Source of the DNA: Caulobacteraceae bacterium
Lineage (GTDB): Bacteria > Pseudomonadota > Alphaproteobacteria > Caulobacterales > Caulobacteraceae
Assembly: GCA_013815405.1 (NCBI GenBank)
Contig: JACDGF010000145.1
Location: 1-6,044, forward strand
Direction: 5' to 3'
Length of the DNA stretch: 6,044 nt
Position numbers and translations under genes: made by a program. This document shows positions 1-5,941 of this stretch, piece by piece; within the stretch, counting starts at the first letter, position 1, and each line of letters starts with the position of its first letter. The notes beneath the pieces are model-generated. The model worked only from the letters and a program-made list of their open reading frames with translations. It made no database searches and was not told the DNA's origin.

Positions 1-758
1 CCCAGCGCCTGGGCCGCGACCCCGGGGCCCCTCCCCTGGATATCCGCGGCCCCGCCGAGGTCGCCGCGGCGGTGAGCGCCTTCAACGAGATGCAGGAACG
101 CCTGCGCCGCTATGTCGAATACCGGACCACCATGATCGGGGCCATCGCCCACGACCTGCGCACCCCCTTGACCCGGCTGCGGTTTCGGATCGAAGCGGTC
201 CCGGAGGATCTGCGCGGCAAGCTGGCGGCGGATATCGACCAGATGGAGGCCATGGTCGCCGCGACGCTCGACTTCGTGCGCCATGCCGCCAGGCCTCGGA
301 AACGCCAGCGGCTCGAACTGGCCTCCCTGGTGGAGACGGTGATGGACGAGGCGACCGAGACCGGCGCCGACGCCGTGGTCGAACGCGCCGACCGCGCGGT
401 TATCGACGGCGACCCCCTGGCCCTCAAGCGCCTGGTCGTCAATCTGGTCGACAACGCCGTGAAGTTCGGATCGCTGGCCCGCGGCCGGGTGTTCGCGCAA
501 GATGGCATGGCCATTGTCGAGATCGACGACGATGGTCCGGGCATCGCGCCGGAAGAGGTCGAACGGGCCTTCGAACCCTTCCATCGCCTGGAGGCGTCCC
601 GCAGCCGGGACACCGGCGGCATCGGGCTCGGCCTCGCCGTGGTCCGCGCCATCGCCCGCGGCCATGGCGGCGACGTCGTCCTGGGCGCCCTGCCGGGCGG
701 AGGTCTTCGGGCCCGGGTCTCCCTGCCTTTGGCGCTGACGGCCGCTCTTGACGGGTAG
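1..758 (+). CDS. Sensor histidine kinase, C-terminal part (5' end outside window)
   Basis: This is the catalytic half of a membrane sensor histidine kinase, which autophosphorylates on histidine and passes the phosphate to a response regulator. The frame is open from the left edge (first full codon at base 3). A GTG at 72 is in frame, but the residues before it (LGRDPGAPPL, then a PAEVAAAVSAFNEMQ stretch) look like the end of a HAMP linker, so the gene starts upstream of the window. Counting from base 3, the visible peptide is 251 residues. The H-box AHDLRTPLTRLR has the phospho-acceptor at His50, the N-box is VVNLVDNAVKFG (Asn147, Asn151), the G1 box is DDDGPGI (175-181), and the G2 box GGIGLGLA follows at about 205-212. 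The motif style resembles EnvZ/RstB-like kinases. Sensor region, transmembrane helices and partner regulator are not visible. The gene converges on the AraC-type gene with 14 bases between stop codons, and I see no clear terminator hairpin there. Confidence 0.92.
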   Translation, partial: QRLGRDPGAPPLDIRGPAEVAAAVSAFNEMQERLRRYVEYRTTMIGAIAHDLRTPLTRLRFRIEAVPEDLRGKLAADIDQMEAMVAATLDFVRHAARPRKRQRLELASLVETVMDEATETGADAVVERADRAVIDGDPLALKRLVVNLVDNAVKFGSLARGRVFAQDGMAIVEIDDDGPGIAPEEVERAFEPFHRLEASRSRDTGGIGLGLAVVRAIARGHGGDVVLGALPGGGLRARVSLPLALTAALDG

Positions 759-2005: not shown

Positions 2006-2650
2006 CTAATGATTGATCAATCCCGACAGGATGTTGATCCCCAAAGCGAGGACGGCGGTGTTGTAGAAGAACGAGGTGACGGCATGGGCCGTGACCAGGT
2101 TGCGCAGGGCGGTGGTCTGGACCGAGGGGTCGGAAACCTGCGCGGTGGCCCCGATGCAGATGGCGAGATAGGCGAAGTCCAGATAGGTCCCGGGCCCCTC
2201 TCCCGGAAACTTGAAACCCGCCTTGGCGCCGCCCTTTTCGACCGCCTGGAAATGGCGGTGGGCGTAGTGGACCACGAACACGGCCTGGAGCACCGCCCAG
2301 GAGGTTACCAGGGTCGAGCCGGCCAGGGCCGTCACCACCAGCCGCGTTGGCGCGGCTTGATCCTTGGCGCCGACAAGAGCCGCGACGATGGCCGCCAACG
2401 ACGCCAGGATGGCGGCCGCCACCAGGAGCAGGATCACGCCGCGCGTTTCGTCCTGGCGCGCCGCCCGCTCGCGCACCTCGGCTTGCGAAGCGGTGACGAA
2501 AAGCCGCGACATGGTCAGGATAAAGACGATGGCGCCCAGGTTCCAGCCGATCAGGGCCCGCGCCGGGGCCGGCGCGCCCAGGACCAGGGATACTGCCCAG
2601 GCGATGAGGCCGGTCAGCAACCCCAGCCCCAATCGCCAATGCGCCATCAT
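2006..2650 (-). CDS. DUF1345 family integral membrane protein
   Basis: This is a hydrophobic inner-membrane protein of 214 residues that matches the DUF1345 family pattern. The cytoplasmic or periplasmic loop carries the family-typical order HYAH (128-131), FKFPGEGPGTYLDFAYLAICIGATAQVSD (146-174), then a final helix with HAVTSFFYNTAVLALGINILSGL (189-211). I count about six membrane segments: roughly 7-25, 33-53, 71-93, 105-127, 156-172 and 186-211. The molecular function of this family is not established. I chose the ATG at 2650 because a GGTGG sits 9 bases before it (2660-2664). A TTG at 2668 in the same frame would add six residues but has no visible ribosome site. The gene begins 40 bases after the EgtB-EgtD stop on the same strand, so it may be co-transcribed with it. 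Any role in thiol transport would be speculation. Confidence 0.9.
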   Translation of the reverse strand: MMAHWRLGLGLLTGLIAWAVSLVLGAPAPARALIGWNLGAIVFILTMSRLFVTASQAEVRERAARQDETRGVILLLVAAAILASLAAIVAALVGAKDQAAPTRLVVTALAGSTLVTSWAVLQAVFVVHYAHRHFQAVEKGGAKAGFKFPGEGPGTYLDFAYLAICIGATAQVSDPSVQTTALRNLVTAHAVTSFFYNTAVLALGINILSGLINH

Positions 2651-2690
2651 CGCCAAAGGCCACCGCAATGGTGACCGGCGGCCGACGTGC

Positions 2691-4859
2691 TCATGATCCG
2701 GTCAACAGGAAGACCGCGAAGGTCGGCGCCGGGCTGACCCATTGGCGCAGGGGCTCCCATCCGGCGCGCCGGGCCAGATCCGCAAAACCCTCCAAGGTAT
2801 ATTTGTAGGAGTTTTCGGTGTGGATGGTCTCGCCGGAGACGAAGGAGAAGGTCCGGCCGGCCGCGTGCGCCTCGCCGCTCTCAAGGGCCTCGAGGTGCAT
2901 TTCCATTCGCCCCTCCAGCCGGTTCCACACCGCCCGATGAGCGAAGCCGGCAAGGTCGAAGTCACCGCCCAGTTCACGGTTGATGCGCGCCAGGAGATTG
3001 AGGTTGAAGGCCGCGGTCACGCCTTGGGAATCGTCATAGGCGGCGGTTAGGATGGCGGCGTCCTTGGCGAGGTCGACGCCGACGATGAACAGGCTGCCAG
3101 GGCCCAGGAGGCCCTTTAGCCGATGCAGCAGGGCCACGGCCTCGTCGGGGGCGAAATTGCCGATCGTCGAACCGGGGAAAAAGCCCACCCTGGGCCGATC
3201 CGCGGCCTCCGTGGGCAGGTCGCGCGCGCGGGTGAAATCGCGAACCACCGGCGTGACGTCCAGGCGGGGATAGTCGCCGGCTATGGCGGCCGCGCCGTCC
3301 CGCACCGCCGCGGCGCTGATGTCGATCGGCATGTAGGCGCCGATTTGAGGCGCGGCGTCCAGGAGCAGGCGGGTCTTGAGGCTGGCGCCGCTGCCCAGCT
3401 CGATGAGCACGGCGCCTTGCGGGACGCGGGCGGCGATCTCCGGGGCGACGCGCGTCAGCAAGGCGCTTTCCTGGCGGGTCGGGTAATATTCGGGCAGGTC
3501 GCAGATCACCTCGAACAGCGCCGACCCTTCCGCATCGTAGAACCATTTGGCCGGCAGGCTCTTGCGCGCCGCCGACAGGCCCGCGATCACATCGGCGCGG
3601 AAGGCGTCCTCGGCCGCCGGCTCCGGCGCGTCCATCGCCAGCCGCACCCCGGCGAACATCCATCGCTGATGGGGATAGTAGAAGTTGCGGTAGGAGGGGC
3701 GCGCATGGCCCGCGGGGGTGATGCAGGCGCCGCCCTTGAGCACCATCTGCCCGACCATGAATTTGGCGTTGTATTCGCCCACCGCGCCGGCGGCCGGGGC
3801 GAATCCGGGGTGTGGGGTGTAGGCGCTGGCCGTCCATTGCCACACCTCGGTGGCAAGCTGCTCAAGCGCCCCGGCCTCGGCGACGGCCGCGTGCTCCCAC
3901 TCCGCCTCGGTCGGTAGGCGCGCGCCGGCCCAGGCCGCGTAGGCGGCCGCCTCATAGAAGCTGACATGGACCACGGGCGCCTCGGGATCCACCGGAAGCG
4001 GCCCGCGAAGCGTCATCGTCCGCCAGACCGCGCCGTCTCGCTCCCAGTAGAGCGGCGCCTCCCATCCCTCCGCCCCGACCCTCGCCCAGCCGTCGGCGAG
4101 CCAGAACTCGTGGCGCCGGTAGCCGCCGTCCTCCATGAAGGCCAGCCACTCGCCGTTCGTGACCAGCCGGCTCGCCAGCCGATACGGAGGCAAGAGCACC
4201 TCATGGCGCGGCGATTCATTGTCGAACGCGAAGGCGCGCTCGTCGCGGCCGATCTCCACCCGGCCGCCGCGGATGTCGACGAAGTCCGGTGGACTGGTCG
4301 CGGGCGTGGGCCTCGCGGCGGCCTGGGCATAGGCGGGGGCCAGCGGCGAGACCGCGAAGAGGCTCAATATGTCCATCAGGATGAGCTCCTGATGCTGCTC
4401 CTCGTGGGCAAAGCCCAGGATGGTCAGGTCTCGCACCGACTTGGCGACCGGGCGCGACAGGAGGCGCTCCATCGCCAGGTCAACGTGGGCGCGATAGGCC
4501 ATCACCCGACCGGCGGACGGCCGGGTCAGCAAGCCGCGCGCGGGGCGGGGGTGACGCGCGCCCATCGCTTCATAATAGGAGTTGAAGAGGTAGCCGAAGA
4601 TCGGATCGAACGGTTCATACCCATCCAGATGGGGCGCGAGGAGGAAGGTCTCGAAGAACCAGCTGGTGTGGGCCAGGTGCCATTTGGTGGGGCTGGCGTC
4701 CGGCATGGATTGGGCGGTCTGGTCCTCCGGCGACAGAGGAGCGGCCAACGCCACGCTGGCGTTTCGGATCTGGCGGTAACGCGCGGCCAGATCGCCAAGC
4801 GCCGCAGGCTCGATTTGGGCCGTCGCCTCACGGGCCGGCGCATCGTCGGATGGCGCCAT
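2691..4859 (-). CDS. egtB-egtD: Bifunctional ergothioneine biosynthesis protein: EgtB sulfoxide synthase fused to EgtD histidine methyltransferase
   Basis: This 722-residue fusion carries two steps of ergothioneine synthesis. The EgtD part uses S-adenosylmethionine to trimethylate histidine to hercynine. The EgtB part is a non-heme iron enzyme that uses O2 to join hercynine to a cysteine-type thiol as a sulfoxide. Residues 20-170 form the DinB-like domain: WHLAHTSWFFE (His64) and HEEQHQE (His152, His156) supply the expected three-histidine iron site. Residues 190-410 form the formylglycine-enzyme-like domain (RLPTEAEWEHA at 314-324, LKGGA at 374-378, SYRNFYYP, ending FAGVRLAMDA). After about ten linker residues EgtD runs 419-722: KSLPAKWFYD, PEYYPTRQE (456-464), SAM-binding IELGSGASLKTR (486-497), PIDIS (Asp513), RDF (541-542), GSTIGNF (Asn568), AYDDSQGVTAAFN (Tyr608), HTENSYKY (Glu682, Ser684). 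The ATG at 4859 has GGAGA 7 bases upstream. The open frame runs further upstream to 5270, but that part is not EgtB-like and overlaps the MDR gene. Both halves look complete. Confidence 0.94.
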   Translation of the reverse strand: MAPSDDAPAREATAQIEPAALGDLAARYRQIRNASVALAAPLSPEDQTAQSMPDASPTKWHLAHTSWFFETFLLAPHLDGYEPFDPIFGYLFNSYYEAMGARHPRPARGLLTRPSAGRVMAYRAHVDLAMERLLSRPVAKSVRDLTILGFAHEEQHQELILMDILSLFAVSPLAPAYAQAAARPTPATSPPDFVDIRGGRVEIGRDERAFAFDNESPRHEVLLPPYRLASRLVTNGEWLAFMEDGGYRRHEFWLADGWARVGAEGWEAPLYWERDGAVWRTMTLRGPLPVDPEAPVVHVSFYEAAAYAAWAGARLPTEAEWEHAAVAEAGALEQLATEVWQWTASAYTPHPGFAPAAGAVGEYNAKFMVGQMVLKGGACITPAGHARPSYRNFYYPHQRWMFAGVRLAMDAPEPAAEDAFRADVIAGLSAARKSLPAKWFYDAEGSALFEVICDLPEYYPTRQESALLTRVAPEIAARVPQGAVLIELGSGASLKTRLLLDAAPQIGAYMPIDISAAAVRDGAAAIAGDYPRLDVTPVVRDFTRARDLPTEAADRPRVGFFPGSTIGNFAPDEAVALLHRLKGLLGPGSLFIVGVDLAKDAAILTAAYDDSQGVTAAFNLNLLARINRELGGDFDLAGFAHRAVWNRLEGRMEMHLEALESGEAHAAGRTFSFVSGETIHTENSYKYTLEGFADLARRAGWEPLRQWVSPAPTFAVFLLTGS

Positions 4860-4866
4860 GCTCTTG

Positions 4867-4871
4867 TCTCC
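4867..4871 (-). promoter_or_regulatory. egtB-egtD: Ribosome binding site of the EgtB-EgtD gene
   Basis: On the minus strand GGAGA lies 7 bases before the ATG at 4859. This settles the start and shows that the 137 residues of open frame upstream of it are not part of the protein. Confidence 0.75.
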
Positions 4872-4879
4872 GTGGGCGG

Positions 4880-4893
4880 CGGTCGATCGACCG
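4880..4893. promoter_or_regulatory. Perfect 14-base palindrome before the EgtB-EgtD gene; candidate operator
   Basis: CGGTCGATCGACCG equals its own reverse complement. It lies in the 119-base gap between the MDR stop and the EgtB-EgtD start, 20 bases before the ATG and just upstream of the ribosome site. The position would suit a repressor site or a 5' leader hairpin. No protein is assigned to it. I could not identify convincing -35/-10 boxes in the gap: a TTGACC (minus strand, around 4936-4941) has no matching -10 at normal spacing. Confidence 0.35.
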
Positions 4894-4978
4894 GGTCGAG
4901 TTATTGCGCCCCCGCCGAGCCGCGGGGCCATGGGGTCAACACGCGAAGAGCCCATCGGTTGCGCGCCCCCGTTCGGCG

Positions 4979-5941
4979 CTAGGGGATGAGGAGGACGCGA
5001 CCGACCGCCTGACGCGCTTCTATATAGGCATGGGCCGCCGCCGCCTCGCGCAAGGGAAACGCGCGGTCGACAAGCACTTTCAACTCGCCGCGCGCCGCTT
5101 CGTCGATCAGGCGTTGGATATTTCCGCGCACCCGGTAGGTCGCGATCTCGGCGCCCAGGAACACGCCGCGCAGCGCGCGGTTGCCGCCCATCATGGTCGA
5201 AACGTCCACCTTCATCGGCTCGCGGCCGGCCGCGCCGACCATCGAGATACGTCCTCGATATCCCAGGCACAGGATCGACGCCTGCAAAGTCCCGCCGCCG
5301 ACCGGGTCGACCACTAGGTCGACGCCCTTGTCGCCGGTGAGTCTCATCACTGACTGGACCACGTCCTCGCGCCGGTAGTTGATGGGATGGTCGAGCCCCA
5401 GGGGCGCGAGGCGCGCCAGCCGCTCATCGCTGGACGCGGTGGCGATCACCGTCGCGCCGGCGCGCTTGGCCAGCTGGATGGCCGCGACGCCCACCCCGCC
5501 GGCCCCGGCCTGGACCAGGACGGTTTCGCCGGCTTTCAGGGCGCCGAATTCGAACAGGCACTCCTCCGCCGTGCCGAAGGTCACCGGGATCACGGACGCC
5601 TGGCCGACATCGAAACCCCCCGGGATCGGCCAAGCGCTCGTGGCCGCCACGGACCTCAGTTCCGCGTGGGAGCCGGAGGCCCCGACGGTCGCCACCTTCT
5701 GGCCGACCTTCAGGTCGCCCGCCTCCGCGCCGACCTCGATGATCTCGCCGGCCGCCTGGTAGCCCACCACATGGGGCCGCGCCGTCAGCGCGCCGCGCCA
5801 CCGGTTCAGGACGTCGCCGCCCTCGACGCTGATCGCCTCGACCTTGATGACGACGCCCTTGGGGTGACATTGGGGATCGGCGACCTCCTCGTATCTGAAG
5901 ACGCTGGGATCGCCGTTATCATAATAGACGGCCGCCTTCAT
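4979..5941 (-). CDS. Zinc-independent MDR-family NAD(P)-dependent oxidoreductase (quinone oxidoreductase-like)
   Basis: This is a cytoplasmic medium-chain dehydrogenase/reductase of 320 residues, the usual length for the quinone-oxidoreductase branch, which reduces quinones or enone-type carbonyls with NAD(P)H. The N-terminal catalytic domain (1-115) opens with MKAAVYYDNGDPSVFRYEEV. Where zinc alcohol dehydrogenases have the GHE motif, this protein has GYQAAGEI (60-67), and the four-cysteine structural zinc lobe is absent, so it should be zinc-free. The nucleotide-binding Rossmann fold follows, with VLVQAGAGGVGVAAIQLAKRAGA at about 141-163 and VDLVVDPVGGGTLQ after it. The C-terminus AVGRVLLIP is typical and complete. 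The ATG at 5941 has GAGAGG 6 bases upstream and begins exactly at the family N-terminus. The gene lies upstream of EgtB-EgtD on the same strand. The 119-base gap allows either co-transcription or a separate promoter. The actual substrate cannot be told from sequence. Confidence 0.92.
   Translation of the reverse strand: MKAAVYYDNGDPSVFRYEEVADPQCHPKGVVIKVEAISVEGGDVLNRWRGALTARPHVVGYQAAGEIIEVGAEAGDLKVGQKVATVGASGSHAELRSVAATSAWPIPGGFDVGQASVIPVTFGTAEECLFEFGALKAGETVLVQAGAGGVGVAAIQLAKRAGATVIATASSDERLARLAPLGLDHPINYRREDVVQSVMRLTGDKGVDLVVDPVGGGTLQASILCLGYRGRISMVGAAGREPMKVDVSTMMGGNRALRGVFLGAEIATYRVRGNIQRLIDEAARGELKVLVDRAFPLREAAAAHAYIEARQAVGRVLLIP

Follow-up and report, generated by a model that had tools for sequence, protein, structure and literature searches.

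Fungal Egt1 proteins (N. crassa, S. pombe and A. fumigatus EgtA) unite an EgtD-family methyltransferase and an EgtB-like sulfoxide synthase in one chain, and passages of two reports (PMC5066259, PMC4020840) give cysteine as their presumed sulfur donor, as is also presumed for the protein described below. In Alphaproteobacteria such as Methylobacterium, the two enzymes are instead encoded by tandem egtB and egtD genes, and a passage of one study states that M. aquaticum 22A no longer makes ergothioneine once the egtB-egtD pair is deleted (PMC4621440). The ovothiol enzyme OvoA also places a sulfoxide synthase and a methyltransferase in one chain, while the type II EgtB of C. thermophilum (Chloracidobacterium; CthEgtB) stands alone; Tyr93-Tyr94 form the type II catalytic pair of CthEgtB, which favours cysteine, according to passages of PMC10903977. 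Full-text searches covering titles, the starts of abstracts and individual passages returned no description of a fusion in which EgtB precedes EgtD. Bacterial fusions may already have been reported by Jones et al. 2014, whom a passage of one paper cites for gene fusion having possibly occurred in bacterial species (PMC5066259).

We analysed a gene in a 6,044-nucleotide stretch of DNA from a Caulobacteraceae bacterium, referred to at its full length as the window, in which the following features were identified:

2691..4859, minus strand: egtB-egtD fusion gene, an uninterrupted frame with ATG at 4859 and stop at 2691-2693
4868..4871, minus strand: GGAG, likely ribosome-binding site read from the sequence, 8 nt 5' of the ATG
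3636..4787, minus strand: EgtB half, residues 25-408 (DinB_2, residues 28-159, at 4383-4778, then the FGE-like domain)
3603..3635, minus strand: junction, residues 409-419, about 11 residues between the two NCBIfam matches
2706..3602, minus strand: EgtD half, residues 420-718

Translation of 2691-4859 on the minus strand gave 722 residues (P0001) with no internal stop, and the open frame continues 5' of the chosen ATG, up to a GTG at 5270. Both halves scored above the curated NCBIfam cut-offs for their families, with 540.6 bits against 360 for EgtB (TIGR03440, residues 25-408) and 380.6 bits against 290.9 for EgtD (TIGR03438, residues 420-718), which bears out a preliminary description of this DNA as holding a complete EgtB and a complete EgtD in one frame. 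Pfam matches on the 722-residue protein comprised DinB_2 (28-159), FGE-sulfatase (best stretch 190-327) and Methyltransf_33 (420-719). The same protein scored below the cut-offs of the OvoA family (TIGR04344; 99.7 bits against 400) and the SenA family (NF041186; 348.5 bits against 420). Since the methyltransferase does not lie N-terminal to the sulfoxide synthase, the domain order is, as first described, the reverse of that given for fungal Egt1 in a passage of PMC5066259. The junction was also as described, with neither a stop nor a long linker in bases 3603-3635. Measured with another model, the gap between the halves is 7 residues in the window protein and 5-23 residues in the main group of fused proteins; because its length and sequence vary within that group, the junction looks more like an EgtD tail than a designed linker.

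Fused genes of this type were found to be widespread. Among 8000 homologues scored, each of the best 120 (120/120 listed) is a single protein of 668-755 residues that combines FGE and methyltransferase domains. Those of the listed records that carry names refer to one half only (EgtB, or dimethylhistidine methyltransferase), so that pathway surveys may miss the other half. Within the family, 115 of 149 Caulobacteraceae genomes had a match. In 95 of these a single frame spans the junction (as an unbroken stretch in 88, as two stretches sharing a frame in 6, and at a contig edge in 1), 19 have separate genes (15 tandem, 1 divergent and 3 on different contigs) and one (G044) is cut by a contig end; part of the EgtB half is missing from one of the 95 (G105). 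Reading of individual loci showed that G076 and G007 hold separate genes with stops between the halves, while fused genomes outside the locus reading were called from stop counts, and G104 from a junction-spanning match at a contig edge. The fusion is the usual form among Caulobacteraceae genomes carrying the enzymes. Across 385 genomes of the class, 117 matched, and among the matches listed seven had both halves uninterrupted, three of them Caulobacteraceae. The 29 best-scoring class loci beside that of the window (L111-L139) divided into 6 fused and 23 tandem, in keeping with the earlier statement that bacterial egtB and egtD are mostly separate neighbours, an arrangement common elsewhere in the class. 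At the level of the phylum, 13 of 398 genomes passed an E-value of 1e-155, nine with the halves uninterrupted and four with one stop between them. Named carriers include Caulobacter, Phenylobacterium, Brevundimonas, Luteibacter, Pseudomonas and Duganella. The idea of a single or recent event was not upheld, given that the fusion is usual in Caulobacteraceae and occurs also in gamma- and betaproteobacteria.

This distribution also bears on whether the joined frame might be an assembly or sequencing error. The window lies on one contig of a 513-contig metagenome assembly, and one relative (L058) is such a case, with its EgtB end in the wrong frame. An error in the window gene is nevertheless scarcely conceivable, and we discarded it, because independent genomes carry the fusion as well (95 of the 115 matching family genomes, several of them single-contig assemblies), and because the nearest homologue (P0002), which is 90% identical, also has 722 residues. 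L058 itself, from a Rhodospirillales MAG, was rejected as a fusion because its frame shifts close to where egtB ends, probably through an assembly error; it was counted as fused in the in-frame, flank, neighbourhood and promoter counts and excluded from the careful, single-domain and AU-tested trees. The window gene is a single-chain EgtB then EgtD, a real variant, widespread in bacteria, of a known enzyme pair.

Phylogenetic reconstruction, starting from 179 loci, pointed to a number of events in the history of the fusion. No tree row came from loci with one half only, from one with a short half (L067) or from a far-off pair (L170). Removal of near copies reduced 152 pairs to 138, of which 83 entered the careful tree. 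In that tree 39 fused rows group together, with three separate pairs nested within: L157 (G007), whose halves share a frame interrupted by one TGA then GTG, L149 (G107) and L150 (G112). In the concatenated tree without two chimeric pairs, a branch with support of 98/93 sets the 39 fused rows and these three separate pairs apart from the rest, and a grouping of the fused rows without the three pairs was rejected (p-AU 4e-72), the clades subjected to AU tests having been named after the tree was seen. Close relatives with separate adjacent genes, which the preliminary description had set against its own reading, do exist; because the trees nest them inside the fused group, they look like re-splits. 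Most simply, the three pairs are likely to be re-splits of a fused gene and not its precursors, a reading that rests on parsimony because the root was not inferred. Single-domain trees also identified two chimeric pairs, G013 (L153), in which a tandem-type EgtB accompanies an EgtD of the fused type, and G076 (L154), in which a fused-type EgtB accompanies another EgtD, as well as a spare EgtD of fused type in G070 (L170). Rows from Luteibacter, Pseudomonas and Duganella group with the Caulobacteraceae row G075 (100/100), which suggests transfer of the fusion between classes.

Independent fusions in many lineages, in place of one old fusion with later re-splits, could produce some of these patterns. 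One fused row with a 28-residue linker (L118, G226) is separate, its addition to the main fused group being rejected (p-AU 0.0008), and appears to be a second, independent fusion. In-frame tandem pairs with a single stop were found in other lineages, and the EgtB-only tree taken alone requires eight changes between fused and split states, with L049, L113 and L114 falling with tandem rows. The concatenated tree, however, takes six changes with the chimeras included, compared with a mean of 28.0 after shuffling, and four without them, and we regard many separate fusions as distinctly unlikely. The single-domain trees give a less clear picture than the concatenated one: in the EgtD-only tree, too, the tandem rows L148 and L151 fall within the fused set. 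Under the preferred reading of one old fusion, adjacent egtB and egtD genes would have fused once in an ancestor of the group. The resulting gene would then have become usual across Caulobacteraceae and passed to certain gamma- and betaproteobacteria, while a few lineages would have separated its halves again or recombined them. Loss of the stop between adjacent genes, proposed in the preliminary description, is a possible route, but only 18 of 71 non-redundant tandem pairs lie in one frame, so that a frame change is as likely as stop loss. The idea that fusion precursors show up as an excess of tandem pairs in one frame was accordingly rejected, with 18 pairs in frame and 41 and 12 in the other frames (n = 71).

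Residue conservation was evaluated in an alignment (A2) of 91 chosen relatives, which do not form a random sample and comprise 65 EgtB-bearing and 65 EgtD-bearing rows. The following sites were located in the window gene:

4668..4670, minus strand: His64, predicted iron ligand, histidine in 65/65 EgtB-bearing A2 rows, equivalent to position 62 of 8qf6_A
4572..4577, minus strand: Tyr95-Tyr96, equivalent to the type II pair Tyr93-Tyr94 of CthEgtB by alignment to 8qf6_A
4392..4406, minus strand: HEEQH with His152 and His156, predicted iron ligands, both histidine in 65/65 EgtB-bearing A2 rows
3369..3401, minus strand: ELGSGASLKTR, SAM-binding motif, residues 487-497, conserved in A2
3156-3158, minus strand: Asn568, predicted histidine-binding residue, in 65/65 EgtD-bearing A2 rows
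3036-3038, minus strand: Tyr608, predicted histidine-binding residue, in 65/65 EgtD-bearing A2 rows
2808..2816, minus strand: Glu682-Asn683-Ser684, predicted histidine-binding residues, aligned to M. smegmatis EgtD

All three iron histidines of EgtB (H64, H152 and H156) are present, and we take position 62 of 8qf6_A, the counterpart of H64, to be an iron ligand. Both residues of the type II Tyr-Tyr pair were also found, Y95 being present in 64 and Y96 in all 65 of the EgtB-bearing rows. In the EgtD half, ELGSGASLKTR is presumably the SAM-binding motif of class I methyltransferases, and the histidine-binding roles of N568, Y608, E682, N683 and S684 are assumed from EgtD; E682 occurs in 65/65, S684 in 60/65 and N683 in 49/65 of the EgtD-bearing rows. 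Conservation in A2 thus agrees with the earlier account of intact iron-ligand, SAM and histidine-binding motifs. A predicted structure of the whole protein (pLDDT 93.8, pTM 0.84), in which the junction is confidently predicted, was used in place of an earlier model that was too weak (pTM 0.60). Superposition of this predicted structure gave an rmsd of 1.3 over 382 residues at 56% identity for the EgtB half on C. thermophilum EgtB, and of 1.2 over 304 residues at 43% identity for the EgtD half on M. smegmatis EgtD. An OvoA-like packing of the two domains was rejected for the predicted model, two-domain superpositions giving rmsd values of 16.8-19.3 (16.8 over 546 residues for 8khq). The FGE-like domain was also observed to lack a loop of about 20 residues at residues 328-335 (window 3855-3878); this loop is short in 27/39 fused rows of A2 versus 2/26 stand-alone EgtB rows.

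From these intact sites, the C-terminal EgtD domain is predicted to use SAM to trimethylate histidine, forming hercynine, and the N-terminal type II EgtB would join cysteine to C2 of hercynine using Fe(II) and O2, yielding hercynylcysteine sulfoxide for a separate C-S lyase. Judged by its sequence, the fusion protein is likely to catalyse the two opening steps of ergothioneine synthesis. We hold with considerable confidence that it is an EgtB-EgtD for steps 1 and 2, with a type II, cysteine-using EgtB, that was fused once and has been re-split or recombined in a few lineages. Use of gamma-glutamylcysteine or a selenium donor in place of cysteine might be argued from the relationship to SenA, though at 348.5 bits the protein falls under that family's cut-off of 420 while passing that of EgtB, and from EgtC-like proteins that scored 118-169 bits, below the cut-off of 218.65, in five genomes of the window's genus. 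The nearest solved relative is a type II enzyme with a Tyr-Tyr pair that prefers cysteine, according to passages of PMC10903977, and EgtC (TIGR03442) was above its cut-off in 0/149 Caulobacteraceae genomes, which fits cysteine as donor without proving it; a donor other than cysteine is highly improbable. In the window's own genome, a metagenome assembly that is 85% complete and in which absences are weak, the only EgtC match was at E 2.5e-4. Also, no EgtE-family lyase (TIGR04343) exceeded the 400-bit cut-off in any of the 149 Caulobacteraceae genomes (best 167.7), and another PLP lyase may serve for the last step.

The preliminary description further proposed that fusion could pass hercynine from one active site to the other. 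EgtD and EgtB are consecutive in the pathway, and both sites belong to a single chain whose short junction is predicted with confidence. Against such channelling, in which the EgtD site would hand hercynine to the EgtB site, the linker varies in length and sequence, and three separate pairs nested in the fused group, together with the chimeric pairs, indicate that the halves can become unlinked; the re-splits suggest that the enzymes do not require a covalent link. We consider channelling unlikely as the purpose of the fusion: tunnelling is not supported, and the data can be explained without a tunnel between the sites. The simplest reason for the fusion would be shared dosage, with both enzymes produced in equal amount from one start.

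Examination of the flanking regions identified candidate regulatory and neighbouring features:

4938..4962, minus strand: weak EcfG-type promoter match GCAAC-N16-TGTT, with two mismatches to the consensus
2006..2668, minus strand: DUF1345 gene, immediately downstream in the same orientation (PF07077, 171.1 bits)
L055:3174-3803, L015:3873-4460, L051:3207-3905 and L150:716-1360: examples in relatives of a divergent ECF sigma gene

Across 137 loci, the strict general-stress (EcfG) promoter motif GGAAC-N16/17-CGTT was found in 40 on the coding strand within 420 bases 5' of the EgtB domain. The spacing was 16 in 34 of these motifs and 17 in the other 6; spacings of 13-15 and 18-20 gave no match, and 12, 21 and 24 gave one each. 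Decoys made by shuffling the halves gave a mean of 0.65 (maximum 12) and a gene-body control gave 0; the loci are related and not independent, so that the number of origins is smaller than the count. At spacings of 15-18 the motif occurred in 25/62 fused and 15/75 split loci, where shuffles expect 0.39 and 0.37, respectively, and the opposite strand held 21 motifs at a spacing of 16 and 4 at 17. A divergent ECF sigma gene lies upstream in 15/59 fused and 4/70 split loci; the window has no sigma gene there, its place being taken by a quinone oxidoreductase-like gene (4979-5941). The window contains no strict EcfG motif, a second two-mismatch match falls within its upstream gene, several near relatives have no such match, and a sigma-70 promoter scan of 4700-5100 found none. 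Many relatives carry general-stress (EcfG) motifs upstream, and the window gene has only a weak candidate site. In Sphingopyxis, egtB and egtD belong to the stress regulon, as stated in a passage of PMC7083833.

Downstream, a DUF1345 gene occupies the same side and strand in 17/50 fused and 0/45 split loci with at least 1.1 kb of downstream sequence, and also adjoins the stand-alone egtB of L070 and L164, both outside that count. Further along, window 72-758 and 773-1987 also drew attention: relatives of a convergent histidine-kinase gene were observed in 19/50 fused and 0/45 split loci, plus L070. Between the histidine-kinase and DUF1345 genes sit AraC-type regulator and glyoxalase-like genes, with matches in the window's locus alone among the compared loci, whose flanks are short.

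We would give even odds to a broader reading, in which this is an OvoA-ordered ergothioneine synthase with an origin separate from that of Egt1, and the fusion is reversible, a single ancestral fusion having spread across Proteobacteria and been repeatedly cut and reshuffled, under EcfG control in much of the group. If the fusion is indeed reversible, the fused, split and chimeric enzymes form a natural series for measuring directly what covalent linkage is worth. Whether joining consecutive enzymes brings a gain beyond equal dosage could be tested with the re-split and chimeric relatives. Also, a single gene that supplies the first two steps and would require neither EgtA nor EgtC could be useful for ergothioneine production.

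Compared with the known systems, the window protein shares with fungal Egt1 the combination of both enzymes in one chain, but the methyltransferase, which comes first in Egt1, comes last here. The tandem egtB-egtD of Methylobacterium and other Alphaproteobacteria encodes the same two enzymes, in two genes where the window has one. With C. thermophilum type II EgtB it has in common the Tyr-Tyr pair and a close predicted fold, and differs from that stand-alone enzyme in lacking its loop of about 20 residues. In domain order the likeness is to OvoA, in which a sulfoxide synthase is followed by a C-terminal methyltransferase, but the methyltransferase of OvoA belongs to a different family and acts on a ring nitrogen, according to a passage of PMC10903977.
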